A stretch of 64,000 nt of DNA from NCBI GenBank assembly GCA_907163375.1, contig CAJQUW010012890.1, positions 310,001 to 374,000 of the forward strand. Direction: 5' to 3'. The translations under genes were made by a program, and so were the position numbers. Shown piece by piece: positions 7,131-63,157 of the stretch. Source of the stretch: Prostheceraeus crozeri (lineage: Eukaryota; Platyhelminthes; Polycladida; Euryleptidae). The notes under the pieces were generated by a model, which was not told the DNA's origin, ran no database searches, and saw only the letters and a list, made by a program, of their open reading frames with translations. Positions within the stretch are counted from its first letter, which is position 1, and the number at the start of each line of letters is the position of its first letter.

Positions 7131-8691
<1,561 letters not shown>

Positions 8692-10854: not shown

Positions 10855-10925
10855 GTAAGTTTTTACAAGTCATTTTTCATCAGTGTAATGCTTCAGCTGT
10901 AATTTTCATCAAATCCGTCTCCCGC

Positions 10926-11290
10926 GCTCACTTGAAGGCTTACTAACTAAAACCTTGTGAGACTGGCCGCCTGCCGGAGGAAGGTGCCACCGTTCTCACT
11001 TGAAGGCTCGCTAGCCTTGTGAGTGGCCGCTGGCTGGGGAGGAACCACCACTCTCAGTTGAAGGCTAACTAGCCACAATCTTGTGAGAGTGACCGCCTCC
11101 TGGAGAGGTACCATCGCTGTCACTTGAAGGCTCGCTAGCCATAATCTTGTGAGAATGACCGCCTCCTGGGGCGGCATCACCACTCTCACTTGAAGCCTTT
11201 CTAACCAAGACCTTGTATAGCCTGGTCGCCTTTTAGAGAGGTGCCAACGCTTTCACTTGAAGGCTTGATTACCATCAGCCTATGTGACTG
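10926..11290 (+). repeat. 67-bp minisatellite filling intron 1
   Basis: Six copies of a roughly 67-bp unit starting CTCACTTGAAGGCT and containing CTTGTGAGAGTGACCGCCTC. Copies start near 10926, 10994, 11052, 11119, 11184 and 11251; one is shorter by about 9 bases. It occupies most of the 562-bp intron between exons 1 and 2. Confidence 0.88.
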
Positions 11291-11416: not shown

Positions 11417-11660
11417 AATAGAGTTGTGGCGTCAGTCAGCGCCCTAGAAGAGATAAAAAGCAAGCAGAAGCGGGAAGACATGGTTGTTGATGAGTATGCC
11501 GAACACATCCGCTCAATCTGCAGCGAGAGAGATGCCGCCATACTGAATTTAGAAAGTGAGAATCGACAACTCCGTGAATTGTTGGACAGTAAAGAACCTG
11601 GTGATAATAAAGAAGATGTTCAGGATAAAATCGACATTGAGAATCTGCTAGCAGAACAAG
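11417..11660 (+). CDS. Coiled-coil protein gene, exon 2
   Basis: A 244-base exon between acceptor CTTCCCTTCTAG and donor GTGAGT, entering in phase 0 and leaving in phase 1. The 81 complete codons encode a strongly charged helical segment: SALEEIKSKQKRE, DEYAEHIRSICSERD and SENRQLRELLDSK, followed by an acidic stretch. Leucines and isoleucines fall at heptad-like spacing, as in coiled coils. The coding look (few hydrophobic runs, E/K/R/D rich, no stop) and strong splice sites make this one of the best-supported exons. Intron 2 that follows is 14.3 kb and consists mostly of transposons. Confidence 0.86.
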
Positions 11661-25265: not shown

Positions 25266-25993
25266 AAAGAGTTAATTATATTGCTCTGATTCTAGTCTCT
25301 GCTATGATACAAGAAGTCACATAATAAAAGGTTCACACTCAAATCTCGCACTCAAACCATTTGGATAGATAATTATCTTCTGTATGTCTAATTTCATATC
25401 GCCATCGACATCAGAGTCTGATTTAAATTCAGATTCGGTAACTTATTAGAGCTGCCTGTAACGGCGAGCACTGAATCATGTCATGACCCATCACGCTCAA
25501 GTTTTGTGTGAGTCTCGCCTTCAAGTGACCATGGGAAAGAAATAGAAAACACTATATTGAAACTAGAATATAGCAAAAATATAGGAGATAGAAACACTAC
25601 ACCGGAAATATGTCGTCCGGTGGTATACCGGCCACCACGCCTTGTCGGCAATGCAGTAGGAAGAATGCTTGACGAGTTTTCAGCTGTTATCCGAAAAGGT
25701 CATATATAATTATTGTTGTTATTCAATTTGGAAAATCATGCATTTTAATAGACATCGTCCTCTAACATGCGCCGCACTTCAAAGTGGGTGATTGTAAATA
25801 AATGCCGCGTCGTTTATTAGAGGAAATACGGTATGTAGATTTCATGTAATGGGTCTACTCAAGGCGATGACAAATAATTGATAACCCATGGCTGTAGTTG
25901 GTGCTGACTTCAATGACATCAACCCCACATTTGACGAGCTGATTCGCTGACTTCAAGATAGTTCTCATCAGTAACATGTCTCACCATTTCCAG

Positions 25994-26248
25994 GTTTGGA
26001 AGTCTACCACGATGCAACACGAACGGAACAAGTTGTGTTACTTCTGGTGGAACGCGCTCGTCTGCTAGATGAACTTGATGCCTTTCGAAGAAGTCAACAG
26101 CATTCTGGGGGTGTGCCTCAAATAAAAATCAACAATCACATTGTAACAGATGAAGAGGAAGATGCTGAAATTAGGAATGAACATCTTATGATGGAAGTAC
26201 AACAACTGCGAGAGGAAAATCAGAATTTGAAAGCTGTCCTTCTGAAGA
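25994..26248 (+). CDS. Coiled-coil protein gene, exon 3
   Basis: A 255-base exon, phase 1 at both ends, between acceptor CACCATTTCCAG and donor GTGAGC. It encodes YHDATRTEQVVLLLVERARL, then DELDAFRRSQQ, a short polar linker, an acidic stretch (DEEEDAEIRN) and MMEVQQLREENQNLK. The heptad pattern and the E/K/Q/R/L bias continue the coiled coil of exon 2. The frame would run 14 bases past the donor before a stop, so the donor choice rests on consensus and on phase match with the next exon. Its acceptor lies only 160 bases right of the TACCGT element. Confidence 0.87.
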
Positions 26249-26928
26249 GTGAGCTTTCGTAGATATTCTACATTTCTAAACGAAAAATTTAGCTTGTAGG
26301 AATGCTACTTAATATTTACAATCAGTAGAATAAACTTTCAGAAAATCATCATTGAGCACTGCAAAGTCTACTTCAGCGTCCACACCTGAACGATAATACA
26401 TGTATGTATTTTCGCAATAATTAAGTTTTGCTTCAAAGCTGTAAATGGATGGCTTGATGAGTTTTATTGACGAATTTTCTGAATCCAAAGTGATCATTCC
26501 GATTCTTGTGCAGTTGCGTAAGACTGCGAGATTGCTTATTTTACAGCAGCCATGGGTAATCAGTGACCTCTATATTTCGGACATGCGGAACTTCGAAATT
26601 CGAGTCGATTCTAAATTCTGACTGGAAAAATTTTGAATCGGCTCGTTGCGGCAGGCGAAAAATTGCTCCTATTGTTTTCTTTTGACTATCCTCTGAAGCT
26701 TTGATGTTAAATTTGCTTGATACCCGTGATTTTGGTTCTCTTTAAAAGCGGTTGAAGACGTCGGTTGCTGAACAAGATTCATTCACAGCAAATATGTCAC
26801 CACACGTGCTGCAAGTTTGACTCATTCACTCAAGCTTCCCTTTTCCAATTCCTGGAATGTTTTTACAAGCCCTGCCTAGTCCAAGCCTGTACAGGAATAA
26901 GTCTACATTCCAGAGCTCGACGTCTTCC
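26249..26928. other. Start of intron 3, no recognised element
   Basis: AT-rich sequence without gene-like frames or repeats that I can name. Intron 3 spans 26249-45657. Confidence 0.5.
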
Positions 26929-41133: not shown

Positions 41134-42600
41134 CAGGTGTAGGGTTCGAGTCTGTCCACCTGGGGAAGTGCAGAAGGTACAGAGTTCGAGTCTGTCAGCC
41201 CGGGGAGGTGCAGAAGGTCCAGCGGTGGAGTCTGTCCGCCTGAGGAGGTGCAGAAGGTGCAGGGTTCGAGTCTGTCCGCCTGGAGAGGTGCAGAAGGTCC
41301 AGCGGTGGAGTCTGTCCGCCTGAGGAGGTGCAGAAGGTCCAGCGGTGGAGTCTGTCCGCCTGAGGAGGTGCAGAAGGTGCACGGTTCGAGTCTGTCCGCC
41401 TGAGGAGGTGCAGAAGGTCCAGCGGTGGAGTCTGTCCGCCTGAGGAGGTGCAGAAGGTGCACGGTTCGAATCTGTCCGCCTGAGGAGGTGCAGAAGGTGC
41501 AGGGTTCGAGTCTGTCCGCCTGAGGAGGTGCAGAAGGTGCAGGGTTCGAGTCTGTCCGCCTGTAGAGGTGCAGAAGGTGCAGGGTTCGAGTCTGTCAGCC
41601 TGAGGAGGTGAGGAAGGTACAGGGTTCGAGTCTGTCCGCCTAGAGAGGTGAGGAAGGTGCAGGGTTCGAGTCTGTCCGTCTGGGGAGGTGAAGGAAAGTG
41701 CAGGGTTCGAGTCTGTCCGTCTGGGGAGGTGAAGGAAGGTGCAGGGTTCGAGTCTGTCCGTCTGGGGAGGTGAAGGAAGGTGCAGGGTTCGAGTCTGTCC
41801 GCCTGAGGAGGTGAAGGAAGGTGCAGGGTTCGAGTCTGTCCGCCTGAGGAGGTGCAGAAGGTGCATGGTTCGAATCTGTCCGCCTGAGGAGGTGCAGAAG
41901 GCGCAGAAGGTGCAGGTTTCAAGTGTGTCCGCGTGGAGAGGTGCAGAAGGTGCAGGTTTCAAGTGTGTCCGCGTGGAGAGGTGCAGAAGGTGCAGGGTTC
42001 GAGTCTGTCCGCCTGGGGAGGTGAAGGAAGGTGCAGGGTTCGAGTCTGTCCGCCTGAGGAGGTGCAGAAGGTGCAGGGTTCGAGTCTGTCCGCCTGAGGA
42101 GGTGCAGAAGGTGCAGGGTTCGAGTCTGTCCGTCTGGGGAGGTGAAGGAAGGTGCAGGGTTCGAGTCTGTCCGTCTGGGGAGGTGAAGGAAGGTGCAGGT
42201 TTCGAGTCTGTCCGCCTGGGGAGGTGAAGGAAGGTGCAGGGTTCGAGTCTGTCCGCCTGGAGAGGTGCAGAAGGTCCAGCGGTGGAGTCTGTCCGCCTGA
42301 GGAGGTGCAGAAGGTGCAGGGTTCGAGTCTGTCCGTCTGGGGAGGTGAAGGAAGGTGCAGGCCTCGAGTCTGTCCGTCTGGGGAGGTGAAGGAAGGTGCA
42401 GGGTTCGAGTCTGTCCGCCTGGAGAGGTGCAGAAGGTGCAGGGTTCGAGTCTGTCCGTCTGGGGAGGTGAAGGAAGGTGCAGGGTTCGAGTCTGTCCGCC
42501 TGGGGAGGTGAAGGAAGGTGCAGGGTTCGAGTCTGTCCGTCTGGGGAGGTGAAGGAAGGTGCAGGGTTCGAGTCTGTCCGCCTGGATAGGTGCCACCGTC
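41134..42600 (+). repeat. 40-bp minisatellite carrying a B-box-like motif, about 36 copies
   Basis: Tandem units of 40-41 bp. The common form is GGTTCGAGTCTGTCCGCCTG followed by AGGAGGTGCAGAAGGTGCAG; a second form has GAGGTGAAGGAAGGTGCAG. Most units contain GGTTCGAGTCT, 10 of 11 with the Pol III B box GGTTCGANTCC. A minority (near 41220, 41300, 41340, 41420 and 42280) have CAGCGGTGGAGTCT instead. A degenerate tail runs to about 42660. The array is GC-rich and G-rich on the plus strand, unlike its AT-rich surroundings. Long open frames on both strands are by-products of a unit lacking stops. Confidence 0.95.
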
Positions 42601-45030: not shown

Positions 45031-45657
45031 AATTAGTTCACTTGATGATTTCTCCATCATCTTCTCAGCCAGTCCTCACTGTATATTGCATACACTGAAT
45101 CGAATGCTAGCCAGACAGCGATGTGTGTTTTGGTGTGCGCGAAGTGATATCACGGCACGCACGCATCTCTCACTGGCTCTGTTGTCCTTTGCTGACAGCT
45201 TATTGTTTGCCATTTCCAATAGCAAGCGATAAATAAGCAAGTTGTCTAATTCTGTGATGTGCCATTTCGATATTAAGGTTAGATGTGATCCTTCCTTTCT
45301 AGGAAGCCGAAGCGCGCGCAGATGAATCCAATTCTGTGGCACATTGACTTTTACGAGGATAATAAAATGTTGTCATTTTGATAAAGAAAAACAGAGCAGG
45401 ATGTCGGCACCAATTTCTGAAAGCCGTTCAGCAAATCTATGTTCATGAAACGGTTACTTCCAACTAAATACTTCGAGAGATTGCTGCAGAACAGCACTGC
45501 TTGTAATCTAATAATTGCAACAATCAAATACCTCGCACTTTTATTCCGCTGGTTGAGATTTTGTACGAAGCACTACTGTTGAATCCATCCTCATATGAGT
45601 AGTTTATGAACTGAATTTTCTTCGGTGGTATTCATGAAATTCCATTATTCTCCACAG
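45031..45657. other. End of intron 3, unannotated
   Basis: No repeat or gene recognised until the polypyrimidine tract and acceptor TTATTCTCCACAG of exon 4. Confidence 0.5.
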
Positions 45658-45922
45658 ATGAATCGGATGGGTCGCAGTTGAAGCAAACTGTCGGTGTACT
45701 ACGAGATCAAGCGGTTCAACGTCGGCGGCACGTGAAAATGAAGTTGGCGTCGGCTCGAGAAACTCTGCATCAGAGGACAATCGCTCACTCCGCAGAACTG
45801 AATTCTCTTCGAAGTCAAGTGGATCGTCTGACACTGAGCACGCGGGAAGGAGAGAAAGTGCAGCAAGAAATGCAACAACGTCTACATCAACTCCTCGAGA
45901 CGAATTATCAACTGGAAATGAG
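45658..45922 (+). CDS. Coiled-coil protein gene, exon 4
   Basis: A 265-base exon entering in phase 1 (A|AT) and leaving in phase 2 (AG|). Acceptor TTATTCTCCACAG, donor GAG|GTGAGA. It encodes ESDGSQLKQTVGVLRDQA, a basic patch (VQRRRHVKMK), ETLHQRTIAHSAELNSLRSQ and QQEMQQRLHQLLETNYQLEM, all consistent with a continuous coiled coil. Without splicing the frame ends at once (ATG AGG TGA, stop at 45924-45926). The last 11 bases and the donor are the first, partial unit of the 20-bp array that fills the start of the next intron, so exon end and array share ancestry. Confidence 0.88.
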
Positions 45923-48838
45923 GTGAGACCACTGGAAATAAGGTGAGGCCGCTGAAAATGAGGTAAGAGCGCTGGGGATGAGGTGAGGCCGCTGGAGATG
46001 AGGTGAGACCGCAAGAGATGAAGTGAGATCGTTGCAGATGAGATGAAGCCGCTGGAGATGAGGTGAAGCAGCTGAAAACGAGGTGAGACCACTGAAGATG
46101 AGGTGAGGCCGCTGAAGATGAGATGAGGTAGCTGAAGATGAGGTGAGACCACTGAAGATGAGGTGAGGCCGCTGAAGATGAGATGAGGTAGCTGAAGATG
46201 AGGTGAGGCCGCTGAAGATGAGATGAGGTAGCTGAAGATGAGGTGAGACCACTGAAGATGAGGTGAGGCCGCTGAAGATGAGATGAGGTAGCTGAAAACG
46301 AGGTGAGACCACTGAAGATGAGGTGAGGCCGCTGAAGATGAGATGAGGTAGCTGAAGATGAGGTGAGACCACTGAAGATGAGGTGAGGCCGCTGAAGATG
46401 AGATGAGGTAGCTGAAGATGAGGTGAGGCCGCTGCAGATGAGGTGAGGCCGCTGAAGATGAGATGAGGTAGCTGAAGATGAGGTGAGGCCGCTGCAGATG
46501 AGGTGAGGCCTCTGAAGATGAGATGAGGTAGCTGAAAACGAGGTGAGACCAATGAAGATGAGGTGAGGCCGCTGAAGATGAGGTGAGGCCGCTGAAGATG
46601 AGGTGAGGCAGCTGAAGATGAGGTGAGGCCGCTGAAGATGAGGTGAGACCGCTGAAAACGAGGTGAGACCACTGAAGATGAGGTGAGGCCGCTGAAGATG
46701 AGGTGAGGCCGCTGAAGATGAGGTGAGACCGCTGAAAACGAGGTGAGACCACTGAAGATGAGGTGAGGCCGCTGAAGATGAGGTGAGGCCGCTGGAGATG
46801 AGGTGAGAGCGCAGGAGATGAGGTGAGGCCGCTGCAGATGAGGTGAGGCCTCTGAAGATGAGGTGAGGCAGCTGGAGATGAGGTGAGGCAGCTGAAAACG
46901 AGGTGAGACCACTGAAGATGAGGTGAGGCCGCTGAAGATGAGGTGAGGCCGCTGAAGATGAGGTGAGGCAGCTGAAGATGAGGTGAGGCCGCTGGAGATG
47001 AGGTGAGACCACTGAAGATGAGGTGAGGCCGCTGGAGATGAGGTGAAGCCGCTGGAGATGAGGTGAGGCCGCTGGAGATGAGGTGAGGCCGCTGGAGATG
47101 AGGTGAGACCGCTGAAGATGAGGTGAGGCAGGTGGAGATGAGGTGAGACCACTGGAGATGAGGTGAGACCGCTGGAGATGAGGTGAGGCCGCTGGAGATG
47201 AGGTGAGAGCGCTGGAGATGAGGTGAGGCCGCTGGAGATGAGGTGAGAGCGCTGGAGATGAGGTGAGACCGCTGGAGATGAGGTGAGACCACTGGAGATG
47301 AGGTGAGACCGCTGAAGATGAGGTGAGGCAGCTGAAAACGAGGTGAGACCACTGAAGATGAGGTGAGGCCGCTGAAGATGAGGTGAGGCAGCTGAAGATG
47401 AGGTGAGGCCGCTGAAGATGAGGTGAGGCCGCTGAAAACGAGGTGAGACCACTGAAGATGAGGTGAGGCCGCTGAAAATGAGGTGAGGCAGCTGAAGATG
47501 AGGTGAGGCCGCTGAAGATGAGGTGAGGCCGCTGAAAACGAGGTGAGACCACTGAAGATGAGGTGAGGCAGCTGGAGATGAGGTGAGACCACTGGAGATG
47601 AGGTGAGGCAGCTGGAGATGAGGTGAGGCCGCTGAAGATGAGGTGAGGCAGCTGAAAACGAGGTGAGACCACTGAAGATGAGGTGAGGCCGCTGAAGATG
47701 AGGTGAGGCAGCTGGAGATGAGGTGAGACCGCTGAAGATGAGGTGAGGCCGCTGAAAACGAGGTGAGACCACTGAAGATGAGGTGAGGCCGCTGGAGATG
47801 AGATGAAGCCGCTGGAGATGAGGTGAGAGCGCTGGAGATGAGGTGAGGCCGCTGGAGATGAAGTGAGACGGCCGGGGATGAAGTGAGATCGTTGCAGATG
47901 AGATGAAGCCGCTGGAGATGAGGTGAGAGCGCTGGAGATGAGGTGAGGCCGCTGGAGATAAGGTGAGACCACTAAAGATGAGGTGAGGCCGCTGGAGATA
48001 TGGTGAGACCGCTGGAGATGAGGTGAGGCCGCTGGAGATGAGAAGAGAGCGCAGGAGATGAAGTGAGGCCGCTGAAGATGAGGTGAGGCCGCTGGGGAGA
48101 TGTGGTGAGAGCGCTGGGGATATGGTGAGACCGCTGGAGATGAGGTGAGAGCGCTGGAGATGAGGTGAGGCCGCTGGAGATGAGGTGAGAGCGCTGGAGA
48201 TGAGGTGAGGCCGCTGGAGATGAGGTGAGGCCGCTGGAGATGAGGTGAGGCCGCTGGTGAGATGTGGTGAGAGCGCAGGAGATGAAGTGAGGCCGCTGGA
48301 GATGAGGTGAGGCCGCTGGAGATATGGTGAGGCCGCTGGAGATGAGGTGAGAGCGCAGGAGATGAAGTGAGGCCGCTGAAGATGAGGTGAGGCCGCTGGA
48401 GATGAGGTGAGGCCGCTGGAGATTAGGTGAGGCCGCTGGAGATATGGTGAGACCGCTGGAGATTAGGTGAGGCCGCTGGAGATGAGGTGAGGCCGCTGGA
48501 GATGAGAAGAGAGCGCAGGAGATGAAGTGAGGCCGCTGAAGATGAGGTGAGGCCGCGGGAGATGAGGTGAGGCCGCTGGTGAGATGTGGTGAGAGCGCAG
48601 GAGATGAAGTGAGGCCGCTGAAGATGAGGTGAGGCCGCTGGGGAGATGTGGTGAGAGCGCTGGAGAGGATGTGAGGCCGCTGGAGATGAGGTGAGACGGC
48701 CGGGGATGAAGTGAGATCGTTGCAGATGAGATGAAGCCGCTGGAGATGAGGTGAGAGCGCTGGGGATGAAGTGAGATCGTTGCAGATGAGATGAAGCCGC
48801 TGGAGATGAGGTGAGAGCGCTGGAGATGAGGTGAGAAC
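45912..48838 (+). repeat. 20-bp minisatellite of splice-donor units, about 145 copies
   Basis: Consensus CTGAAGATGAGGTGAGGCCG, with GGAGATG, GAAAACG, GAGACC and GATGAGGTA variants. From about 45921 to 48090 the period is exactly 20 with no indels; after that, inserts such as GGTGAGATGTG break the register. Most units contain GAG|GTGAG, a good 5' splice-site match. The first unit overlaps the true exon 4 donor. Between 46081 and 46440 three units form a 60-bp higher-order repeat. The minus strand has no stop in any frame for much of the array, giving spurious open frames of over 500 codons. The array is G-rich on the sense strand of the host gene. Confidence 0.97.
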
Positions 48839-49465
48839 TTCGAACCGCTTTTTCCACTCTTCGTAGTTCTGACTATTTGATTTTTGAAATATCTACAGAA
48901 ATGTTAATATGCAATTTATTAGTCATTCAAGTAGCTGTTTAGGAACCGCTTTTCCCGCAGTTCCGCAAAACTCACTTGAGTTTTAAACACTGCCTCATAA
49001 TTTCCCTGAGATATCTCTGACTTCGACATACAGTCCTGCACGCGTACGGTCAACTTGAATAATCCAAAAGTGCTTTCATCTCTGCCATGTTGATGAAATA
49101 GAAGCGTGTTGGTGAGGATTTTCCCACAGAAAGGTTTACACAGTTCAAGGGGATCGCTTCAGTTTTTATCCGAAAATGTGAATTTCCAACCGTTTTGGCG
49201 GTGAGAAGTTGCAAGTTTATTGTTTGGCAGTCATGCAAAGTGTTCGCGGAGACTGAATTGCAGGCAATGCGCAATTCGGTGCTAAAATGCAAATGCTGAG
49301 TTCAGACACCTTTTTATCGCTAATTGTAGAGTTGTGGGAAGTTAGTTCCTATTCATTCTTTCCTGACGAGAGACATTTGATTGAGTTTTGTTGCCTCTGA
49401 AAACTGACAAGATAGCGATGTTCTCCAGTCCAAACGGGTAAAATGACTTCGAAGATGTAACGTTT
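48839..49465. other. Intron 4 sequence, no recognised gene
   Basis: No repeat family or coding frame recognised. Confidence 0.45.
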
Positions 49466-50095
49466 GGGTACATGTGGGTTATCTCCCCCCACGTTTTCAA
49501 ATTTGTCTAAAATCCGTAAAAGCGAATCAGTTGTCACAAAACTTCAGAACACGTACTCAAGCATATTTTCTACCCGCATGGCAAAATAAATGCAAATGGG
49601 AAAAGTACTATTAGCATTAGAGACGATAACGTGAAGTGTAGCGATCTCAGCAGCTTGATCTGACTTTTGTCTGACTTCATATTCTGAGCAGATAGCACTG
49701 GGTCAGCAAAGTCATGCCGCGACAACTCTTGAAGTGATGGTGGTCCAGACCTCATCCCTTCCTTTAATATACCTACGTTAAAAAAGGTGTGGCAAGGTAG
49801 TGGTCGTGGGAAGATTTCAAATGGCATTGATGACACGAAGAGGGAGAGAGAACAATGCACACACGAGTAATAATAATGCGTCGAACAGACAAAGTCAGGT
49901 CAAGCTGGTGACATCGCTACATTTTACGTTATCGTCTCTAATGCAAAAAGTACCTTCCAATCTGCATAAATTTTTGTATGCTGGTGGAAAATATGCTTGA
50001 GTGCGTGTCTCTGAAGTTTTGTGACGGTTGGTTCAGTTTCACGGATTTGAGACAAATTTGAAAACCTGGGGGGGGGAGATAACCCAAAAGTACCC
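49466..50095. mobile_element. Foldback element B, copy 1
   Basis: Arms of about 200 bp: left GGGTACATGTGGGTTATCTC, right inverse GAGATAACCCAAAAGTACCC. Mirrored inner blocks include GACGATAACGTGAAGTGTAG with CTACATTTTACGTTATCGTC, and TGTCACAAAACTTCAGA with CTGAAGTTTTGTGACG. No coding sequence. Copy 2 at 57594-58226 is in the opposite orientation. Confidence 0.85.
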
Positions 50096-50573
50096 TCGGT
50101 TGTCTTGGTCATTGAGGTTTCAGTCTTCTAATTAAGAAAATGTGATTCAAGCACTTTGAACCTATCTATGATGTTTCATTCATTGATTTATTTCATATAT
50201 TCATTAACAATTTTAGACCTTGGATCTTTGGTTTAGCCTTAGTAGCCGTAATTATGGTTCCAAAAACGTTTGTTGCGAGACTTATGGCAAATCTTGAAGA
50301 TTGTTTTGGCTAATTTTTAATGACATTTAAACCAGTGCCAAAATTATATCAGCTCTGTCAAGTGCAATTGTATCATTACACCATATAAGTAATTGTGTTG
50401 AAGGAATTGCCATGATTACTCGCTAACCGTTACTAGTATTTAGGATGTCTTATGGTATCTTCTTCCTAGGTGACTGGCTTTAGCAAAATTTTAGCAGCTG
50501 ATGTTGACTTGATGCTACAAGTTGGTGCGCCTGAAATTATTAATAAATGCTGCTTTTTGCAAACGCAATGTGA
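50096..50573. other. No recognised feature
   Basis: AT-rich intron sequence. Confidence 0.5.
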
Positions 50574-50882
50574 ATAGAATGATGAAATATTGAGCTGCAT
50601 CCTCAGTTGAAAAATGGGAACAGACCTGAATAGCTGCAATTTCATCCAATATCAGGAATCATCAGGAGTCCTAGTTCACATCGTCCAACATCGACAAACT
50701 CCCTATTGAAAGTGCAGCCATGCCCGGGTAAATTGACTGCAACATTAAATAGGGAGTTGTGTCGATGTTGACAGCTGTGAACTATGCCTGTTAATGATTC
50801 CTAATATTGGTTGAAATGGCAGATATTCAGGTTTGTTTCCATTTTTCAACTGATGATACAACTCAATATTTCATTATTCTAT
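50574..50882. repeat. Large imperfect hairpin, arms about 135 bp
   Basis: Left arm ATAGAATGATGAAATATTGA... to CAACATCGACAAACTCCCTA; right arm is its inverse, TAGGGAGTTGTGTCGATGTT... to TCAATATTTCATTATTCTAT. Mismatches and small indels are spread along the arms. A MITE-like foldback; the loop is about 40 bases. Confidence 0.85.
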
Positions 50883-51007
50883 TTATTGGAACTGAGTCAT
50901 TTGAGAGCACAGCGATCGTTGCAAGACACAACAACGAATGAAATTCAATCTGCAATTCCCACATGTTTATGAATTCTATCTTCATAATATGAATAGGTCC
51001 TCACATT

Positions 51008-51095
51008 ATAGGAATCATAGACCAGAATTTTAGGCATGAATTCCAGGCGTAGCGCCTGGGAAATCATGCCTAGAAATCTGGTCTATGATTCCTAT
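51008..51095. repeat. Pre-miRNA-sized hairpin, about 42-bp stem
   Basis: ATAGGAATCATAGACCAGAA ... CCAGGCG, a 3-base apex (TAG), then CGCCTGG ... TTCTGG-like sequence to GGTCTATGATTCCTAT. Few mismatches. Size and shape fit a miRNA precursor, but a very short MITE is equally possible. Confidence 0.8.
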
Positions 51096-51264
51096 TGTTT
51101 CCAACTTACTATGGTAATAAATGCATGTACAACATGGAAGCAAGAGCTGAATCGTGGAAATGGTTGAATAGATGTCCATGTTAGTTGCATAGATGAATTC
51201 CCGTGTTGATATTTGTTACTATTTCTATGTTTATGATTCCTAGTTATAGCCTTTCATGATTATC

Positions 51265-51310
51265 ACAAAAAACCTGGCAAGAATTACGACATTCTTGCCA
51301 GGGTTTTTTG
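51265..51310. repeat. Short hairpin, about 19-bp stem
   Basis: CAAAAAACCTGGCAAGAAT, a loop of about 7 bases, then ATTCTTGCCAGGGTTTTTTG. A partial repeat of the arm (AACCTGGCAACAATG) follows at 51331. Confidence 0.8.
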
Positions 51311-53019
51311 CATTATTTCAATAGAAATTTAACCTGGCAACAATGCCTTTTGATTGCAATCATAGCGTGATAAATACTTGTAAGCTGGTAACAATGATGC
51401 AATCATGCATTGACGTTACATCAATATCGTGAAATAATGGTGCGATAATGAATTAAGCTCAATTAATGACATAGATCATGCGCGTGCGGATCTTATATGC
51501 CCTTTGATGTAGCACATGCAATGATGCGTGTACTATACATATAGACCTACATGTAGATACTGTACTGAAGGAAAAACCGATCAATTAGGCCTATTTATTT
51601 CTCCGAGGCAGCTGACCGGTGGCCGGTTTTTAGATTAATTACTTCTGAAGTCCGGAAATTTTTATTCACTACTTATTTCTATTAAGTACACAGATTAACA
51701 ACTACTAGAAGTGCCCTGTGAATAACCTGCAGCTTTTCTTTAAATTAGGGAGCTGGAATTTCATTTTGAAGCGTGTCACTTTGATTGAATATCAAAAATC
51801 AAGTAAAATTAGTCATCATGAAACGTCCCTCAGGTGCCGCGCGTCATTTTCTAAATAGCTCCTACATAGGATGACGTTGAGTGAACATTTTCCTAACGGA
51901 AAATGTATAGTATTGATTTCATGAAGACCTCCACTTCCGAAGACGAGGACGCGGAAGAACGAAACAACTACCGAGTGGCAATAACGATAGCATACAGACT
52001 GATGCCCCAAAAAAGTGAATAAATAACTATTGGTGCATTGCAGTAGTACTAGACAAGTTTCCTACCCATTGTGGTACATCTAGTGTTTTATCATAGTGTA
52101 GCTATTGCTTTTGAGAAATACATGAAATATTATCTTTTTGACAAATTGTTTTTCTTAAAAAGTCGGCCTTCTAATAATTATTTATTTTCCAAGGTGCCCG
52201 GTCGACGGCCGGTTTCTGAATGAATCAGATTCTAAAAAGAATCGTATTATCTATGATTATTTGACCTTTATAAAGAGTGTCAGTGCTAGTTGTAGGAGTA
52301 GGATTAATTAGCTTGTAATGAAACGGGAAATCTGGCATTTAAATAAGGATTGGATAAAAATAATTGTTTTTGTTTAGCTCTATAGACTTTTTTCAGTTGT
52401 TTTGGTGCAATTGCATGTAGGTGAGAGTTCATATCAATGTCAACTTTTTAGTCTTAAAAAGGTCATGTTTGGGTTTCAAAACCCGCTATTCATTCTTATG
52501 GGTGGAACTTATGCGAGATATTCGACTTGAAGGACTTGGTAGGACTTGAGAAGTCTTGTGATTTCGAAAAGGTTCAGATGAAATTAATAAAATAAATGAT
52601 CTTTGACTAATAGCAATCTGATATGGCTATTTATTCCCATCCGTTGTCAATTTTGATTTTGTCATCTCCGTCATTCCTTCATAAACAGCATGAGTGAAGT
52701 ACACGCTTGCAGTAAAATATTTTCGAGTTTTTCCAAAAGTTATTATTGCTTCATTTCTGTGATACCAGGCTTATATTTGACATACATTGTTGTCTACGTA
52801 AAAGGTACCTAAGTCGCAGTGTTGATTCGATACGAGAGTGAATACAGACTGTCAAGCTTATCATTATTTACTTTTTATTCATTTTCCATTTTTTGAAAAA
52901 AAATTCATTTATGCTAGCAATTCGTCACTTTTTTCATTTTTGCCATCATTTTTTAAAATTTTGTGTTGTATTTGATGACATTATTTTTGATGATCATAAA
53001 TTTTGAAATCGTCAATAAC
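51311..53019. other. No recognised gene
   Basis: AT-rich intron sequence with no supported feature. Confidence 0.5.
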
Positions 53020-53577
53020 CTTTAGCCCGGTGGTCATACGGCTGCGCGAATTTGTGTAGTGGATGAATGTGAGAAAACATTGAGCTCCTGCGTGAAAAAT
53101 CTGTGCCCTTCAGCGTGAATTTCATGGATGATCGAAATACTTTTTACTATTAATTTCTGGAAATCGGGATTATTTTAGATCTTTATGATTCACTTTGACG
53201 TCTACTTGGGCTCTGTTGAAGGTTCTTGGATATATGAGTGAACTTAAGAAATGCTTCGGCTGTTGTGCTTGCTTCACAGAAATGAGAAAATCAAATTCTT
53301 CCAACAGGTACTTGGAGCCGCAGTGGTATGTATCTTTGGAGCTGAAAGATGTTTCGCACCAGATATCTGTCAATCACAACCGGAATGCGTATTTGGTGAT
53401 ACTTAAGTGTAGTCTGTGTAACTATGGGCATTTGATGGCAGCGACTGTTATGTGGAGATTCAATTTAGCTGAAGGTTATCTCCCTTCACGTCATCAGAAT
53501 GTCAGTTTATTGGAGCCATCATTTGAAGTGTATGTTCGGTAGTGCTCAAGATGTGTTAGGATTTGCGATAATGCGAT

Positions 53578-53960
53578 AATGCAGCGTCTTTTTCAAGCTT
53601 GCCTGATTCCACCACACTGCAACTCTGACGTCGAGTGCATGTTTTCCATTTTGAGTGACGCTAATTACTCCAGGATTACGTGATTATGTGGCGAATACAT
53701 TTGTAGCATATCACGCACGATTGAAAAGAGAAAATGAGATCAAGGAAAAAGCCGACGAAGATGCAAAACGTAAGTCGTACAAAGAAGATGAAAAAGCCGA
53801 GCGACTGAAAGATTGCAAGTTAGTGGAAATTAGGTGTAGGTTGGAGAAGATCGATTAGAAAGCAATGGAAGCTTCAAAGAAGAAAGAAGAAGCATACCAA
53901 TAAATGGAAGAAGCTCAAAACCCAATGAAATCTGCCGCAGATGACAATAATATATAACCA
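53578..53960 (+). pseudogene. hAT-type transposase C-terminal remnant
   Basis: In one frame after a shift the sequence reads IPPHCNSDVECMFSIL, similar to the hAT dimerisation-domain motif (H/N-x-D/S-x-E-R-x-F-S). Next come TPGLRDYVANTFVAYHARL and a K/E-rich tail (KEKADEDAKRKSYKEDEKAE), ending at a stop at 53856-53858, with the charged tail readable beyond (MEASKKKEEA). Such charged tails occur in one group of hAT-like transposases. The upstream catalytic part was not found. Placement inside TIRs with an 8-bp duplication supports the call. Confidence 0.6.
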
Positions 53961-54340
53961 GAAAAGAAAGTTTGTGCATTTTGTTGATACAAACATATAA
54001 GTTGTCAACAGTTGTCCGGGACATAACAATTTTTGCATGTACTTTAGACCTGACAATAGCAAAAACAGAATGACATGTTGCTATGGGTCAAGTGCATGAA
54101 TTAATCCACTTTATTCTTTCAACATTTCAATATGAAAAGGAATACGCAAAATAATTGAATATGATCTTATACATATCGACAACGTAGACATTTCTCAGGG
54201 AGTCTACTCTTCCGTAGAAAAGTGGTCTTACTAAAATTTGAGGATGAATTTGACATTTTTGTAGCAAATAAAATAGCAAAATGACCACTTTTCATCGCAA
54301 ATTGTACTTAAATAATTTTGAATGCAAAAACCAAGGCCTT

Positions 54341-54367
54341 TCTGTAGGAACAACCTACAGTCATCAG
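54341..54367 (-). ncRNA. Hammerhead-like motif in Penelope 3' region
   Basis: Read on the minus strand: CTGATGACTGTAGGTTGTTC then CTACAGAAAGG. The exact CTGATGA core is followed by a 7-bp stem (CTGTAGG/CCTACAG) and AGAAA. In a true hammerhead the GAAA should follow a closed stem II; here its G overlaps the stem, and I could not identify stems I and III with confidence. Position downstream of the GIY-YIG domain agrees with reported hammerheads in Penelope-like elements. Confidence 0.42.
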
Positions 54368-54539
54368 GGAAACAATCTAACTGAAGGGTACATGCACATA
54401 AATTTCTACAAAAGATATTCAAAATTATCAAGCTATAGAGTACTATAAAACCTAGATAAATCTATGGTCAGTAAAGACTATGTTCAAAACACCAAAGAAA
54501 TGATGTAACTACTAAAGGCAAAGAAAAAAAGAAGAGACA

Positions 54540-55139
54540 TCAGAAAATAGAAAGATAAAATGAAGAGCCTGAATGAGAAAGTTGACTGTTTAAAATTGGG
54601 GACCTCTTCTTTATGAAGAGGGCCTCGGAAATACGAACAAAATGAGTTTTGTAAATGATCGAAACATTGTTCATGATGTCACGTCTGCTGCAGGTATTAC
54701 ATTCAAGCAAATGGTCGAAAATTGGACCAGGTCTTGACACATGTTCATGAAATCTTTTACCTAGATGTCGTGTTGTCTCACCGATGTATGTGGTATACTG
54801 ATCACCAGTACACTTGAATTCATAAACCACCGATGAGACAAGGGACCTCGGGGTAGGAGACTTCAGAGAAAAAAACTCTCGCAGTCGGGTGCTACGAAAA
54901 GAAAAAGCACAATGTGGTCTTATTTTCACAGGTATCAGCCTTTTAACACGTCTGCAATACATGATACTTTCCTTGTCAAAATATCTGAAAGTAAAAATCT
55001 GTCTTCTGATGTTACTTTCTTCACTCATTGAGTCTTCTTGGTTCACTTGTCTAGGAATTACAATTTTGTCAAGCGTCTCTTTCAGATGTTTCTCCACAAA
55101 CCACAAAGGGTAATTGTTTGCTGCTAAATTTTTTTTCAA
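54540..55139 (-). CDS. Penelope-like protein C-terminal fragment with GIY-YIG nuclease
   Basis: An unbroken 199-codon frame. The N-terminal 60 residues (NNYPLWFVEKHLKETLDKI) correspond to the region between RT and nuclease. VVYEFKCTGDQYTTYIGETT followed by RHLGKRFHEH is the GIY-YIG signature with its catalytic Arg region, and FVRISEALFIKKRSPILNSQ is the C-terminal helix with the conserved Glu. Cys/His residues around the nuclease (CTG, CNTC) fit the Zn-binding linker of some Penelope types. No stop or shift in the fragment, so it is younger than the copy at 23.9 kb, but it lacks the RT and is 5'-truncated. Confidence 0.85.
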   Translation of the reverse strand: MKKNLAANNYPLWFVEKHLKETLDKIVIPRQVNQEDSMSEESNIRRQIFTFRYFDKESIMYCRRVKRLIPVKIRPHCAFSFRSTRLREFFSLKSPTPRSLVSSVVYEFKCTGDQYTTYIGETTRHLGKRFHEHVSRPGPIFDHLLECNTCSRRDIMNNVSIIYKTHFVRISEALFIKKRSPILNSQLSHSGSSFYLSIF

Positions 55140-55215
55140 TTTTCTTATTATCGTTAAATTAAATTATTTTCGATGAAAAGTGGTCATTTTGCTATTTTAT
55201 TTGCTACAAAAATTT

Positions 55216-56555
55216 ATAGTGGGCTTCCTGCTGGAAAAGAATTTGACATTATCTGAGATCGATGCATGTCTGTAATAAAAAAGATAGGAAGGGTAGGGGA
55301 TTAGGGTGTAAAATTTTGAAGGGAGATCTCTTGTGACATCCGCATATTGCGAAATTGAAAATTTTTTGCCCTTCGCGCGCTCTTAGTCATTTTCAGCGGT
55401 TCACATTTCTGGTTTTTATGCTTTGCGATATATAATTCAAGCAGCTACCGAAACAGTTACAAAAGTTAAATGAATTCAAAATAAAAAGAATCTCGTACAT
55501 TGTAGAGATAAAGCTCCCTCTGCAACATGCACATTTGCCTCTGGACAATTTGTCAGTGAACTGCTTTCTAATTTTATCGCTATTTATCAACTTCTGATTT
55601 ATTTAGGAAGCTCTGCAAATTTCCGTAAATTTATTTTGTCCCTGGTAAGTTCCCTGATCTCTACAGTGTTGTGCGTAATAATAGAATGTTTACAGTCGCT
55701 AAGCATAACCTTGTACTGTATATTAAACCCTTAATCTTTCTCTATGTGCCGGACAAGTGCTAATAAAATGCTGATGTTGCTTAACCTTCATTCGAGATAT
55801 AATTTCTTGGTAGATTTGCGCTTATATATCTCTTTGTTTCAAGATATCAACATTCAGATTTCAAGCCTTCGGCATTTTTGTTTCTGCAAGGTTTCTGTTA
55901 AGTAGGGCCTACTTGGTTTTTATCTTCCCATCCATTTTAAATTTTCATTTTGTTAAGTATCACACCTAGACATACTTACACATGCTTAATTGATTTTTAT
56001 AAATCACAGAATGAAAAGAGCATATATTTTTGCGTTTTTGCTTTTTCATGTGTCATGCATGTAGCTTAGAGGTTTGTTTACATCCTCATTATGCATGTTT
56101 CATGACTGATATACCTATGCCTGTCGCAAGTGGTGACAAAATAACTGCAGGCGAAGGTACTTCTCGCCTGTCGAAGGATGGATAGATAATGTATTTGAAT
56201 TATCATTTAATATGAGGTAAATTTCCATATTTCTAGATTTAAGATGTTCCAAAAATTCTGCATTCTGTCGCTATTAGTCTACTTAAATTGAAAGAACGTG
56301 ATTCATAGGCTCATAACCTATGCTCATATCACAATAAATTTCAGGTAATAGAATTTGCAGTATGTGTTGTTAAAATCAATAAGTAGTTTCACACTAAGCG
56401 CATGTGCAATAAGCTTGAACTGGAAACTCACAATTGATATTATGATATTCTATTCAAGTAAATTGACCCTCTTGAACTAAGGCAGTTTTCAGTCTATGAT
56501 TTCATTATTTTAGACATGCGTTATGCAGCCACCACTACTGGCCACACTGACTAGT
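55216..56555. other. Interior of hAT element, no recognised gene
   Basis: AT-rich sequence without identifiable coding or repeat content. Confidence 0.45.
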
Positions 56556-56740
56556 GATTTCCGTGGCACAGTAGTTAAGGGCTTAGCCTAGCGATCTTTC
56601 GGTCCAGAGGTCGAGCCCCGGAAGTATCATCGGAAGTCGGCAGGAAGGGCATCCGGGTTAAAAGATCACAGCGCTCCAGACTCCAGATAAAAGTCTGACT
56701 GTGTCAGCACAGTTAAAGCTTTCTGTATCGCGGACTAGAG
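56556..56740 (+). mobile_element. tRNA-derived SINE
   Basis: TGGCACAGTAG at 56564-56574 fits the Pol III A box at every position. AGGTCGAGCCC near 56609 is a weaker B box. The body contains GGCAGGAAGGGCATCCGGGT, a block seen in SINE and LINE tails of several animals. A Pol III-transcribed, LINE-dependent element. I see no clear target duplication. Confidence 0.6.
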
Positions 56741-57112
56741 ACGTTAATTCATCATTTTTTGTATAAACCATACGAAGATGTATTACATAAATCTTCATAG
56801 TGTACATGTATGTATAAACCCCTGCGTGAATTTTGCGTCTCTGTGTGAAAAATGGAAAATTTCCGGTACGACCACTGCTTAAGCCCTAATATCTGTTTCA
56901 GCCTTCTTTTTTCGAATTTAAGATCGTTGTTCTTTAGATCACGCCTATATGGCACAGGATTCGGCATTTCCTATTAAATTTGTGTCCGCGCATGTGCTTT
57001 GTGCGTAGATAACTGTTTAATAAATCACAGATTGGTTCTCAGGTATTTCTGAGTTTTATGCGCTGGAAAATTTATCGGTTGACATGAAAACCTGTAGTCT
57101 TTCTCTTTCCAG

Positions 57113-57290
57113 TTTGGCTGAAGCGACGAATTCTCTGTCGGAGGAGAAACATCGATCAAGCCTGCTTGCAGAGCGATGCCGGAGGATCGAAGAGGATTAT
57201 GATCTTCACTTCAACAAGAGAAGAGCTGCGACTTTACCTGCCAAACTGACTACGGGCCAAGTAGCAGCGGAGTTTGATGAAAATTGTTAG
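57113..57290 (+). CDS. Coiled-coil protein gene, last exon
   Basis: Acceptor CTTTCTCTTTCCAG; enters in phase 2, so AG|T completes a Ser codon. It encodes LAEATNSLSEEKHRSSLLAE and RCRRIEEDYDLHFNKRRAAT, then a short non-helical tail (KLTTGQVAAEFDENC) and TAG at 57288-57290. The heptad pattern continues from exon 4 for about 40 residues. No good donor precedes the stop, so this appears to be the terminal coding exon. No AATAAA was noticed close downstream. Foldback A copy 3 begins about 55 bases after the stop and may lie in the 3' UTR. Confidence 0.78.
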
Positions 57291-57344
57291 TCCTCAGCAC
57301 GGGAGAGGGTCATAGACAGCAGTTTTTAATTCATTCATGTACCG

Positions 57345-57479
57345 CCGTTGTGTCGGACAAGAAACGGATAGAAGTCCTAGACGCGTTGATTCGTAGTAGG
57401 CATAGGATGTACGCCATTCTGTGAAAGTCTAATCTGCAGGCCTCTTTCCCTGCAGAAACCCATTCTGGCGGCCGGACTA
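57345..57479. mobile_element. Foldback element A, copy 3 (right arm only)
   Basis: Matches the right arm of copies 1 and 2: GTCGGACAAGAAACGG, GATTCGTAGTAGGCATAGGA, CATTCTGTGAAAGTCTAATC and end GGCGGCCGGACTA. The left arm is absent. It lies just past the stop codon of the host gene. Confidence 0.8.
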
Positions 57480-57593
57480 AAAATGAAGCTTTATGTCATG
57501 ATTGTGCTTGATGTCCCTGATCAGACTGATCAGCAAACTTTGATTATTCGTTACAAGTAGCTGATAATTGTCATCAAGCTGGCGATATAACTT

Positions 57594-58226
57594 GGGTACT
57601 TATGGGTTGTCTCCCTCGCACCACGTTTTCAAGTTTGTCTCAAATCTGACAAAATGAATCAATCGTCACCAAACTTCGAGTACACGCACTTAAGTACATT
57701 TTCTACCCACATGCGAAATTTCATGCAGATTAGACAAACACTTTTTGCATGAGAGACGATGACGTAAAGTGTAGCGAAGTCAACAGCTTGATCTGAGTTC
57801 GTCTGCTCGACGCATTATTATTAATCGTGTGTACATTGTTCTCTCTCCCTCTTCGTCTCATCCACTGTTATTTGAAATCTTCCCACGACCACTACCTTGC
57901 CACGCCTTTTTAAGAAGCATATTAATGTGAGGGATGTGGCCTGGTCATCATCGCTTCACGAGTTGTCGGGAATTGACTTGGTTCACCTCAAATGCTTTCT
58001 GCTCCGACCGCGAGGTCTTATGAAGTCATATCAAGCTGCCGGCATCGCTGCACTTCAAGTTATCGCTCCTAATTCAAAAACTACTTCTCCGATTTGCCTA
58101 GATTTTGGTATGTGGCTAGAGAATATCCTCATTCACGTGTGTTTAAAGTTTTGTGACGATTGATTCATTTCTACGGATTTTTAGACAAATTCGAAAACGT
58201 GGGGGGAAGATAACCCATAAGTACCA
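57594..58226. mobile_element. Foldback element B, copy 2 (inverted relative to copy 1)
   Basis: Ends GGGTACTTATGGGTTGTCTC and AAGATAACCCATAAGTACC. The interior matches copy 1 (49466-50095) in opposite orientation, including TTGAAATCTTCCCACGACCA and AGTTGTCGGGAATTGACTTG against AAGAGTTGTCGCGGCATGAC. Confidence 0.82.
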
Positions 58227-61200
58227 CAACTTGTTATGGTTAATGTTGGTAAAATAGCTCCAATGCAAAGGGTAGACTTGTTATTGGATATTCCTGAGAT
58301 GTTACAAATATGTCCGATCCGACGCGGCTTTGCATTTTTCGATCCAACGAGCAGCTCTGCCAATGATAGCAAGGCGAATCGGTGTGTCACCTCGACGTGA
58401 AGTTGGCAAGGATATCTGCTTACAATCCGACCTCCAACGGCATTCACGAGCCGCTATCTATGTCCCTCTCCTCATGCTTGTCAATTCAGTGTTCATCTTC
58501 CCGCCCTGTGAACACTTTCTCTATTCATTGTCAATTGTTTTCTATTGTTATCTCCAAGTGTCTGCACATCGATGAAATATGACACTGTTCAGTTCACGTG
58601 TGAAATGTCCTTACTCCAACTAATTGAGGGTATCACCTGGCCCTCGCGTAGCAACAGTCTTGGAATGCAAATCTGTCGCAAGTTCAGTACATCGCCTTCC
58701 TTCCCACGCAGAAAAAGTGTTAATGTTTTGCGTCAAATATAGTCAAAATGAGAAGGGCATGCTTTTTACTGAAATAGTTTCCTGAACGGTGCGATGACCT
58801 TAACTTTCAATGTCAAATCTTGTGACGCACAACAAGTTTACGAATTGTCCGTACTTGTAGGTTATCTCCTGGTTTTGTGTACCAATGATTCCATTTACTC
58901 ATATGTTTCTAAATAGAAACGGAATGTCAACTGGATTCATGAATTACAAGCGAGTTAGGAAGTTGTTGAACCTATGCGTTTACGATCTTTCCAAAGTGTC
59001 AATCGTTATTGTCTGTCTCACTGGTTCATTGAAACAGTCGCAATCGTACCGGGCATTCATTCAGATATTAGTTTTAAAGGAATTTGTCAAGGTGACTTGG
59101 AAATGAATATCTAACAAGTATTTATGAACGATGAATGTCATTTAATAGTTTTTTCGACTGTGATCATTTATCACGTAATTTTGCATTGCAAGTTGTTGGA
59201 GAACTTGTACTCGGATTCACAAGGTCGCATCGGTTCATGGAATCCAATTGACACGAAATTTCTATGCATAGGAAACGCATACATATCAACGTATTGCAGA
59301 CAAGTTCTGAGCAAGCATGTAATCCCGGCAAGGGAGACAACCTACAACTACTGAACTAACAGTAATGAAAGATATTATTGCTATTATCTGTGAAACTTTT
59401 TTCTTCCTACGATTTTTACTGATATTATGACTTCCTTCTTGTACAATTATATCCACTATTTTCGTACATGTTGTTTTGTCTTCTATGAATAACTGACGCG
59501 CGTTGGAACTAAGCAGACAAAATACTAAATGTCACTATAACCGTGAACTGAAATGAAGCTGCAAAAATTACTACCCTGCTTACCCCCAAAAAATGTGACT
59601 ACAATGAAAACTCATGACTGCGCTTTGCGATTACTAATAGAACAAATTTAAAACTGAAATTTTAGATGGTTCATGTGAGCTTGGAGTGTTCTTCCGCGTG
59701 GCATATTAACTGCAGACTAGCGCATTTAGGTGCTGGGACTAGTAATGAATTAATGTCGGGAAATCTAATTGCTTTGAACACCGACGACGATGACCCGTGA
59801 CAGCTGTCATATAGTGTGATCTCTCTCGACAACAAATTTCACAGAAGCTCAGGCCATCATAATGCAGGCCAGCTAAGCGGATTTTATTGAATTCGATAAG
59901 TAGGGGCCTCTACACCGACATCTTGTGTGTATGAAATTAGAATTTCACCCATTTGCATTCCACTGATGATGACATGTTCATGACATAATGATTTACAAAA
60001 TGTTTGATAGTAGCCTACTATCAAAGAGTAGGCCCAAAGGATATAAGGGAAGCATGTAATCAAAGCATGATTTGTATGGATATTACTATGATATTACTTT
60101 TTCGCCAGTTTATAGGCCTAAACAGTTTTATTTGATATCTCAATTGATAATAGAAGAGTAGATCAGGCCTTAGAGTAGACCTAACAATTATTTTTCATCT
60201 GACTGATAGCAGTAGGAGCAACGATACCATTTGCACTTCGCACGTGAAATTGCGAAAATACAGTGCGGGCAAACCCCTCGCTATTATCAGAAGATCATCT
60301 GGTGAATTAGCGATTTTGTAGCTAATTTTTTTTCATTTCCTCAATAAAAACTATCGCCACATGCGAAAACGACTTTCATTTTTAATAACTGCGTCCAAAA
60401 TCCAAAAGCTACAGGTGGCGAATAAGTTGCTGTTATAAGCAATTGATTCATCGAGACGACTTTCCGCCAACCGACAGGATATGTTTTAGGCTATAACCTT
60501 TTCCGACAAAATCTCATGGCTTGAGACTTTGTTTGAATCTTCTCTTTCCATTAAATTCTTAACTTTTTGCATTGATCCATAGTTCCATTTATATGTCTTT
60601 CTATAAATCTCTCATAGATTCTGGCCATTTGTCTGGAAAACAAGCATGCCAGAAATAAGTGATGATAAAAATGCATCACCCAGTGATATTTTAGGAGTGG
60701 GCCTATGGGCACTTTCTAAGACCCATATTTTTCGGAAACTATCAATTGTGGGCCTAAATGGACGTTACATCGTCAATTTGCATGTAATTACGATGCCCGG
60801 ACAGTTTTTGTTTGCCTCGAACAATCACTCTACACTCGAGTGAGAGGCCTAGCCAATAAGCGTCTGATTTCATTGTCGTTACCTCATTTACATTTTACAT
60901 TTACATATTACATTTTTCATCGCTATTCTTAGCGAATGCGCGTGTTTCCTTCGAATGAGCTGCACATATGGATAAACGATGACAATGACTATTTCTCTTT
61001 CGAATTTGAAGTTCACACGAGCAATGGGTTCAGAGCTAGAGGCCGAAGAACTCAAATTACCCACTTTAGTCCGCTGCCATATTAGGCCTAACAGTCCCAC
61101 TTCACACAATTTTAGAAATTTTGCAGACCCATCTGATGAACTTTAGACGATGATTCTCAAGATTGACTTTTCAAATAGGCCTACGTATGGCCATCGCTTG

Positions 61201-61299: not shown

Positions 61300-63157
61300 G
61301 TAATCAAACTTTCAAGTTTGATGACTTTACACTCACAGAACTTACTGAAACTATAAGTACTATGAATGCCAACAGATCTACGTCAAGTTACCTTTGAAAA
61401 TATTTAAACAATGCTCATCAGAATTTTTTTCACATCTGTGCCGTGTATATAATGAATCAGTGAAAAGAGGAATCTATCCCGAATGCTTGAAAGAATCGGT
61501 GGTATTACCAATATATAAAAAAAGTGACAGAAGAAAACCATCAAATTATAGACCAATCTGTCTATTAAGCTATCTAACAAAAATTTTTGAAAAGATGATC
61601 CATAAGCGAGTATTTAATTTCTTAGAGAAAAACCAAATACTATTTGAGAATCAATATGGTTTCCGGAAGAATCACTCTACAAATTTGGCACTCTTAAAAA
61701 TGACGGATAAAATATACTACGCAAAAGCCAATAATTTATTTACAATAGCATTAAATCTCGATATATCGAAGGTTTTTGACACTGTTCAAACGGACATACT
61801 GCTAGGAAAATTATACAGGGTAGGGATTCGTGGCTTTGTACATGAATGGTTTGCTTCGTATCTGAGAGACAGACCACATAAAGTCCTCGTCAATAAGGTA
61901 CAATCAAAGATGTTAACGGTAAAGACAGGAGTGCCACAAGGCTCATCTTTAGGACCACTATTATTTTTGATCTACATTAATGACATGAAAAATATAGACG
62001 TCTGTGGTGATCTCAGTCTGTTTGCGGATGACACCAATCTAATCGTAAGTGATGGGACTCTTGAATGTGCCATAGAAAAAGCCCAAATGTCATTGGACAA
62101 AATTCAAGCATGGATGAAATATAATAGACTAAAGCTAAACTTAGGAAAATGTGAATATTTGTTCATTCCTCCCAAGCTCCAAACCAAAAATGTCCATTTT
62201 GATTTGACAATAGAAAACTGCAAGTTATCTCAAGTAGACAGCACCTTGGAATCAAATTCGATAATAACTTTAAATTTGATAATCATATCTCATCGATAAT
62301 CAATAAATTGAAAACATTTATACCGACATTATACAAGCTAAGAGATATCATGCCATTAAAAACATTACGCGTACTACACGAACAACTATGTCTCCCTTCT
62401 ATTCAATACTGCTTAATAGCATATGGTAGTGGCAACAAACGGTCACTTAACAAACTACAGCGTTTACATAAGACCTTGATCAAGATAATATACCGCAAGG
62501 AAAAACAGACATTGGATATATCGTTTTACAAAAGTGAACAGTATATGAATGTGGAAACTATGCATGAATTCGAGCTACTGACTCTCGCATATAAAATAAA
62601 ATACAATGATAGCAGCTTGCCAGCATACTACAAAACCCATTTAGAAGAATCAACTAGGCGTAGTGAAAACTTTAAAATCCCATATTTTAGTACATCACTA
62701 GAGCAAAAGAGTAGTAAATTTAGAATACCATTTTCGTGGAATGGTCTTCCGAGCAACATTGAAAAAGCTAAAACAACAAAAGAATTCAAGCAAAAATTAA
62801 AATCACTAATGATGGATAAAATGAATTACTTTTGATATGATGTGCATAATTCTGCATGAGTAGGTCAAATATCCTTCTATGTGCTTTATAATTATGCGTG
62901 CATGCATAATGTACATACCCGTATTATATATTCTAATATACACGTGTTCTTGTATTATTCTGTACTCGTATTATACATTTTCTTTCTTGAGAGCAAAAAA
63001 TAGGGCCAGGCCTTATACCCCATGTGCGGGTCATCTGGTCCTTTTCTCCAATTGACAGTCTTTACGTTATGTCATGAAAAATTTGTATTCACATTTGTAA
63101 AAGATGCATGAAACTCATTTTGTTTGGGGAATAAATATATTTTCTATTCTATTCTAT
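61300..63157 (+). mobile_element. 5'-truncated LINE with nearly intact RT
   Basis: Begins inside the linker before the RT and runs to AATAAA at 63130-63135, followed by a TTCTA tandem tail. Carries an RT with one frameshift near 61385 and one near 62240. Fewer lesions than the LINE at 3.2-7.1 kb, so a more recent insertion. A distinct family, with FADD and a TTCTA tail. Confidence 0.87.
61394..62835 (+). pseudogene. LINE reverse transcriptase, C-terminal two thirds, one internal frameshift
   Basis: First frame (61394-62299): ESVVLPIYKKSDRRKPSNYR, PICLLSYLTKIFEKMIHKRV, NLDISKVFDTVQTDIL (RT motif A), GVPQGSSLGPLLFLIYINDM (motif B) and LFADDTNLIVSD (catalytic FADD). A one-base shift near 62240 passes from VDST to HLGIKFDNNFKFDNHISSI. 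The second frame (to 62835) holds SIQYCLIAYGSGNKRSLNKL and FRIPFSWNGLPSNIEKAKTT, typical of the C-terminal region of jockey/CR1-group elements. The reading frame also extends upstream to about 61309 after another shift. It would copy element RNA at a nicked target. Confidence 0.87.

Follow-up and report, generated by a model that had tools for sequence, protein, structure and literature searches.

Tandem repeats lying across exon-intron borders have been described in amphioxus under the name of mirages, and the accessible parts of the two studies concerned place them in Adh3 and the globin genes BflGb6 and BflGb9 (PMC3087553), with TnC and PGBD5 added subsequently (PMC3902484). Regular splicing was reported to be undisturbed by such repeats (PMC3087553), and the same was reported for the TnC mirage (PMC3902484). 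The available text also counts length instability between haplotypes and somatic instability among mirage traits. In human ABCA7, according to the sections of the source at hand, intron 18 carries a 25-bp VNTR, and exon 18 takes the first GT of this repeat as its authentic donor. When the second unit serves instead, the transcript gains one unit, its frame is shifted and it becomes subject to NMD; such retention of one unit accounts for approximately 2 % of transcripts, with no relation to VNTR length, and longer VNTRs are accompanied by a rise in exon 19 skipping and a fall in expression (PMC5954066). A further human example is the IFI6 (6-16) minisatellite, for which the excerpt available states that two downstream units serve as splice donors and give rise to three mRNA species (PMC4526556, citing Turri 1995).

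The array analysed here is a large and clean case of this already described arrangement, judging by what the accessible portions of these papers set out. It had originally been predicted that no system of this kind had been described, a statement contradicted by the same portions of the literature on amphioxus mirages (PMC3087553, PMC3902484), ABCA7 (PMC5954066) and IFI6 (PMC4526556). The array therefore matters less than first thought, because the same arrangement is already on record from the mirages of lancelets and the repeats of ABCA7 and IFI6. It nonetheless provides a natural setting in which to study how one donor is chosen by the spliceosome among dozens of near-identical neighbours, and as a clear example of a splice junction giving rise to a minisatellite it bears on the idea that tandem duplication of AG/GT blocks can let introns grow or arise.

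As with the amphioxus mirages, to the extent that the available text characterizes them, the array comprises minisatellite-like copies of an exon-intron border within a gene, with AG/GT kept in many but not all units and with edge units that escape homogenization. It differs from them in that its 146 units are short and form one 2.9-kb block at a 5' border. Its 20-bp unit compares with units of 150-160 bp in BflGb6 (six and three units in two haplotypes), a 157-bp duplicate in BflGb9 and units of 10-72 bp in Adh3, as given in the accessible text. The likeness to ABCA7 lies in a first unit that holds the real donor and, according to the part of the source available, in the lengthened, frame-shifted product that use of the second unit gives; the ABCA7 unit begins at GT, whereas the unit here includes 14 exon bases. 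Among the ABCA7 alleles quoted in that part, sizes run from 315 to 9711 bp and an influence on expression and on the skipping of exon 19 has been demonstrated, whereas the array here is known from the sequence of one haplotype. Like IFI6 in the excerpt available, the locus has repeat units downstream of an exon that carry candidate donors. The IFI6 unit is 12 bp long and keeps the frame, whereas every slip in the array here ends the protein.

Structure of the array

Within the window (the whole stretch of 64,000 nucleotides analysed), Tandem Repeats Finder identified a repeat of period 20 with 145.8 copies at 45912-48835 and the consensus CTGGAGATGAGGTGAGGCCG. Re-phased by three bases, the array was segmented into 146 whole units, comprising 142 of 20 bp and four of 22 bp (Table 1). 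The original prediction had placed about 145 sense-oriented tandem copies of a 5' splice site at the head of the intron; the exact count is 146, and the location was borne out, whilst the repeated block begins three bases before the start first given. Unit 1 consists of CAACTGGAAATGAG as its exonic part and GTGAGA as its intronic part. The final unit likewise closes with GTGAGA and is followed by unrelated, non-repeat intron sequence. Elsewhere in the window the best matches to the unit on either strand had six mismatches in 20, within the range of five to seven given by 20 shuffles of one strand.

Table 1. Coordinates of the array and of the gene model in which it lies (value in brackets, calculated U1 pairing energy in kcal/mol)
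Feature	Position	Strand	Basis
Upstream exon of the model, donor AAG/GTGAGT	11417..11660	+	
Upstream exon of the model, weak donor AGA/GTGAGC (-5.4)	25994..26248	+	
Probable coding exon with the array at its end, acceptor TCCACAG, donor GAG/GTGAGA, ends in phase 2	45658..45922	+	
20-bp minisatellite, 146 units, each corresponding to exon -14 to -1 plus intron +1 to +6	45909..48836	+	Tandem Repeats Finder, segmentation, column variation, edge and lag tests
Unit 1, final 14 bases of the exon and initial 6 of the intron; sole array donor preserving the 313-residue frame	45909..45928	+	
Putative intron opening with the array, 11.2 kb	45923..57112	+	Inferred from exon model and acceptor scan
TGA reached at once by any donor after unit 1	45924..45926	+	130/130 later donors that keep GT
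Probable next exon, ends in a stop	57113..57290	+	Longest frame among candidate acceptors

Comparison of the units with one another showed the features by which mirages are recognized. The repeats span the exon-intron boundary as placed by the exon model, with unit 1 on the border and 145 further units behind it. Many units, although not all, retain the splice motif: GT is present at the donor position in 131/146 units and absent from 15/146, and the wider motif NAG/GTRAG is kept in 110/146. The expectation that most units would keep GAG/GTGAG was upheld, this motif being intact in 105 of the 146. By the same exon model the authentic donor lies in the first repeat unit, as in VNTRs of the ABCA7 and IFI6 type.

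Probable local amplification of the repeat

Edge and lag tests were restricted to the 20-bp units (142/146). The 16 outermost units, eight at each end, differed from the majority unit by 1.78 bases more on average than the inner units did, a difference reached in 0/5000 permutations. These outer units were also more distant from all other units (0/5000 permutations) and from their nearest unit (2/5000). Identical units recurred at a lag of five units (0.142), a value matched by 0/500 shuffles at any of 30 lags, with weaker recurrence at lags of three and 11 (0.112 and 0.111; 7/500 shuffles reached 0.111 at some lag). The interior thus displays concerted evolution from which the boundary units have been left out, with divergent ends on three measures and recurrence at lag 5. 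Taken together, the lag recurrence and the divergent ends point to local amplification with the ends left out, as in the mirage clusters portrayed in the accessible text (PMC3087553). The units are whole and keep the register of the exon border, and the array ends on GTGAGA, as would be expected if an ancestral junction had been multiplied in place as one block.

Donor strength and consequences of a slip

The U1 pairing energy was computed for each GT site against the 5' end of U1. A dense row of U1 sites had been predicted, and by calculation 108/146 units both keep GT and match or exceed unit 1 (-9.7 kcal/mol) in the strength of U1 pairing. Of the 3401 plus-strand GT sites that the window has outside the array, four reached this energy, equivalent to about 0.07 per kb versus 37 per kb within the array. 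Units 2 to 5, the nearest neighbours of the exon, had energies of -10.1, -9.6, -10.2 and -9.7, and the remaining two donors of the gene model had energies of -10.2 and -5.4. On its plus strand the window contains 107 copies of the donor core GAGGTGAG, two of them outside the array (41605 and 41645, both within another minisatellite), and on its minus strand none.

Use of any later unit had been predicted to run straight into a stop (ATG AGG TGA, 45918-45926), and all 130 later GT donors proved to do so. A slip of this kind would truncate the partial 313-residue model at residue 255, and among the 131 GT donors the 313-residue frame survives with unit 1 only.

We consider it probable, at roughly four chances in five, that the array is a neutral, donor-spanning minisatellite, a mirage in the amphioxus sense, in which splicing relies chiefly on unit 1, some truncated mRNA is made by leakage and no role has evolved. 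A 20-bp block, with 14 bases from the end of the exon and six from the start of the intron, would have been duplicated in tandem, and would then have expanded to 146 units through ordinary minisatellite turnover, by slippage or unequal exchange. Sitting in the intron, the copies would be spliced out along with it. The spliceosome would choose unit 1 for the most part, presumably because this donor is transcribed before all the others and yields the shortest exon, and near units (2 to 5) may be used occasionally, yielding mRNA with an immediate stop; the array would thus cost a slight loss of output. We count in favour of this reading that donor loss is tolerated within the array, 15/146 units having no GT, and that the decoys beside the exon, units 2 to 5, have not been purged. 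Counted against it are the low variability of the donor core and the rarity with which the donor Gs at +3 (0.007) and +5 (0.049) are lost, as well as the negative orthologue searches and the missing poly(A) signal past the last exon. Among the options originally put forward, the strongest support goes to a neutral minisatellite that arose from duplication of an exon-intron border, whilst the U1 sponge finds little support, given that the +1 G is lost like the G of column 9 and that GT-less types have multiplied.

The main rival is a length-dependent modifier of splicing of the ABCA7 type, in which additional units would supply extra decoy donors or bind further splicing factors, so that long alleles would give less full-length mRNA, either through truncated mRNA or because a neighbouring exon is skipped, as happens in ABCA7. 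Strong donors do lie near the exon and any slip gives an immediate stop, and the human gene supplies a parallel in the available part of its description, longer VNTRs being associated there with more exon 19 skipping and lower expression (PMC5954066). The same part, however, reports second-unit use to be independent of VNTR length (PMC5954066), and the amphioxus mirages are reported, in the text accessible, to leave splicing free of interference (PMC3087553, PMC3902484). We regard such a modifier as unlikely.

Conservation of donor positions

Variation was then compared across the columns of the unit. The eight-column donor core was the least variable of 20 circular windows, ranking first on three measures, and column permutation gave P values of 0.021 for units and 0.024 for distinct types. 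With the two CpG columns removed P rose to 0.05, and with the two most variable columns also dropped, a post hoc choice, it rose to 0.18; the excess of conservation in the donor core is slight and varies with the choice of columns. The fraction of 142 units with G replaced by A was 0.042 at -3, 0.07 at -1, 0.106 at +1, 0.007 at +3 and 0.049 at +5 within the donor, and 0.148 at column 3 (CpG), 0.014 at column 6, 0.106 at column 9 and 0.359 at column 20 (+6) outside it. The +1 G, which a donor needs to work, was thus replaced by A in 15/142 units (0.106), the same rate as for the non-donor G of column 9 (0.106). One GT-less type was present in seven copies and another in four. The copies are therefore not clearly maintained as donors, nor clearly purged, because loss of the +1 G equals that at column 9, GT-less types have multiplied and units 2 to 5 resemble unit 1 in strength; a weak constraint on donors is possible.

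These patterns bear on the idea of a selected U1 platform, in which the array would keep many U1 snRNPs bound to the nascent transcript, either as a sponge or to guard the long intron against being cleaved prematurely at its poly(A) signals. By calculation 108/146 units pair with U1 like unit 1, the 16 AATAAA or ATTAAA hexamers of the putative intron all lie downstream of the array, and the donor core is slightly over-conserved; but loss of the +1 G at the same rate as the G of non-donor column 9, and a GT-less type multiplied to seven copies, argue against it, and titration of abundant U1 by the intron of a single gene is unlikely. We judge a selected platform of either kind highly improbable. 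Equally hard to credit is the fuller proposal that an 11-kb intron opens with a selected platform of over 100 U1 sites, which would both block premature polyadenylation and set the amount of full-length protein by array length. The accessible parts of the literature on minisatellites with U1 snRNP and on tandem repeats with telescripting (including PMC9909926) describe no such system.

Gene model around the array

The exon at whose end the array begins was numbered exon 4 in the original prediction; the model considered here begins with the exon at 11417. Its four exons, bounded by AG acceptors and GT donors, can be joined into a single open frame that encodes a partial protein of 313 residues ending at a stop, with a coiled-coil look by eye. 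The acceptor of the last exon was chosen among 22 acceptor-like sites between 48837 and 64000: it opens 59 codons in the required phase, the longest such frame (the next has 48), and has a pyrimidine tract of 13/15.

Homology searches returned no relative at E <= 0.01 for a 147-residue query against 53 candidates, nor at E <= 0.1 for the 313-residue query against the 7998 candidates sharing most words. This absence carries little weight because the coverage of animals in the protein library is uncertain. No Pfam family exceeded its curated cut-off, the best matches being weak (Mod(r), E 0.0019; CCDC22, E 0.39). The PDB held no relative at E <= 0.001, and for the four-exon protein nothing better than E 0.054; the three chains found at E 0.054-0.07, one from the allophagy receptor allo-1 and two from translation machinery-associated protein 17, were taken as compositional matches. 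No AATAAA or ATTAAA was present in 57291-60342, the 3 kb past the stop of the last exon. That exon is for this reason less sure than the others, and the true 3' end of the gene may sit elsewhere than after 57290. As no orthologue was found, the model is drawn from reading frame and splice signals, and we consider it probable rather than proven, because no protein relative was found and no poly(A) signal occurs up to 60343.

Were the gene or the exon border not real, owing to a pseudogene or a wrong model, the array would only look like a row of donors. The failure to find a homologue, a Pfam family above cut-off, a PDB relative at E <= 0.001 or a canonical poly(A) signal within 3 kb speaks for this, but four exons in frame with standard splice signals, the last of them the longest frame of 22 candidates, make it very unlikely. 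That the array instead codes on the minus strand, as an antisense gene for a repeat protein, is negligible as an explanation: minus-strand open frames of 952, 846 and 687 residues do lie at 45604-48462, but the minus strand of the unit is free of stop codons, which leaves all three frames of that strand open across most of the array, none stands out because a 20-bp unit places every column in all three codon positions, and the longest continues into the antisense of the exon.

Other exon borders of the model were also inspected for repeats. No repeat of at least 14 bases was found at the borders covered (25800-26600 and 56900-57500). Six degenerate copies of a 64-nt sequence, spaced 58-68 bases apart, were present at 10902-11290, ending approximately 130 bp before the exon at 11417 and therefore not reaching its border; some of these copies hold stretches resembling CTGGAGAGGT.

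Other features of the window

A second minisatellite was identified at 41135-42593 in an intron of the gene model. It comprises about 36 copies of a 40-bp unit, its ends are tied to no exon, and it is G-rich on the same strand as the donor array (GC skew 0.40). Many of its units contain GGTTCGAGTC, which we take to resemble a tRNA B box. By eye, the stretch at 56560-56640 resembles a tRNA, has possible A and B boxes and may be the head of a SINE; Rfam and ARAGORN returned nothing in the window, this stretch included.

Several sequences resembling mobile elements were also observed. The reading frame at 5582-6604 is that of a LINE-type reverse transcriptase, with 142 relatives at E <= 0.001, a top match 56 % identical over 96 % and PF00078 in those relatives among the matches listed (120 of 142). 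Frames at 7384-8508 and 27711-29631 on the minus strand presumably belong to transposases of the Tc1/mariner and pogo types, on inspection by eye. A second reverse-transcriptase-like stretch was likewise recognized by eye at 61440-62840 on the plus strand.
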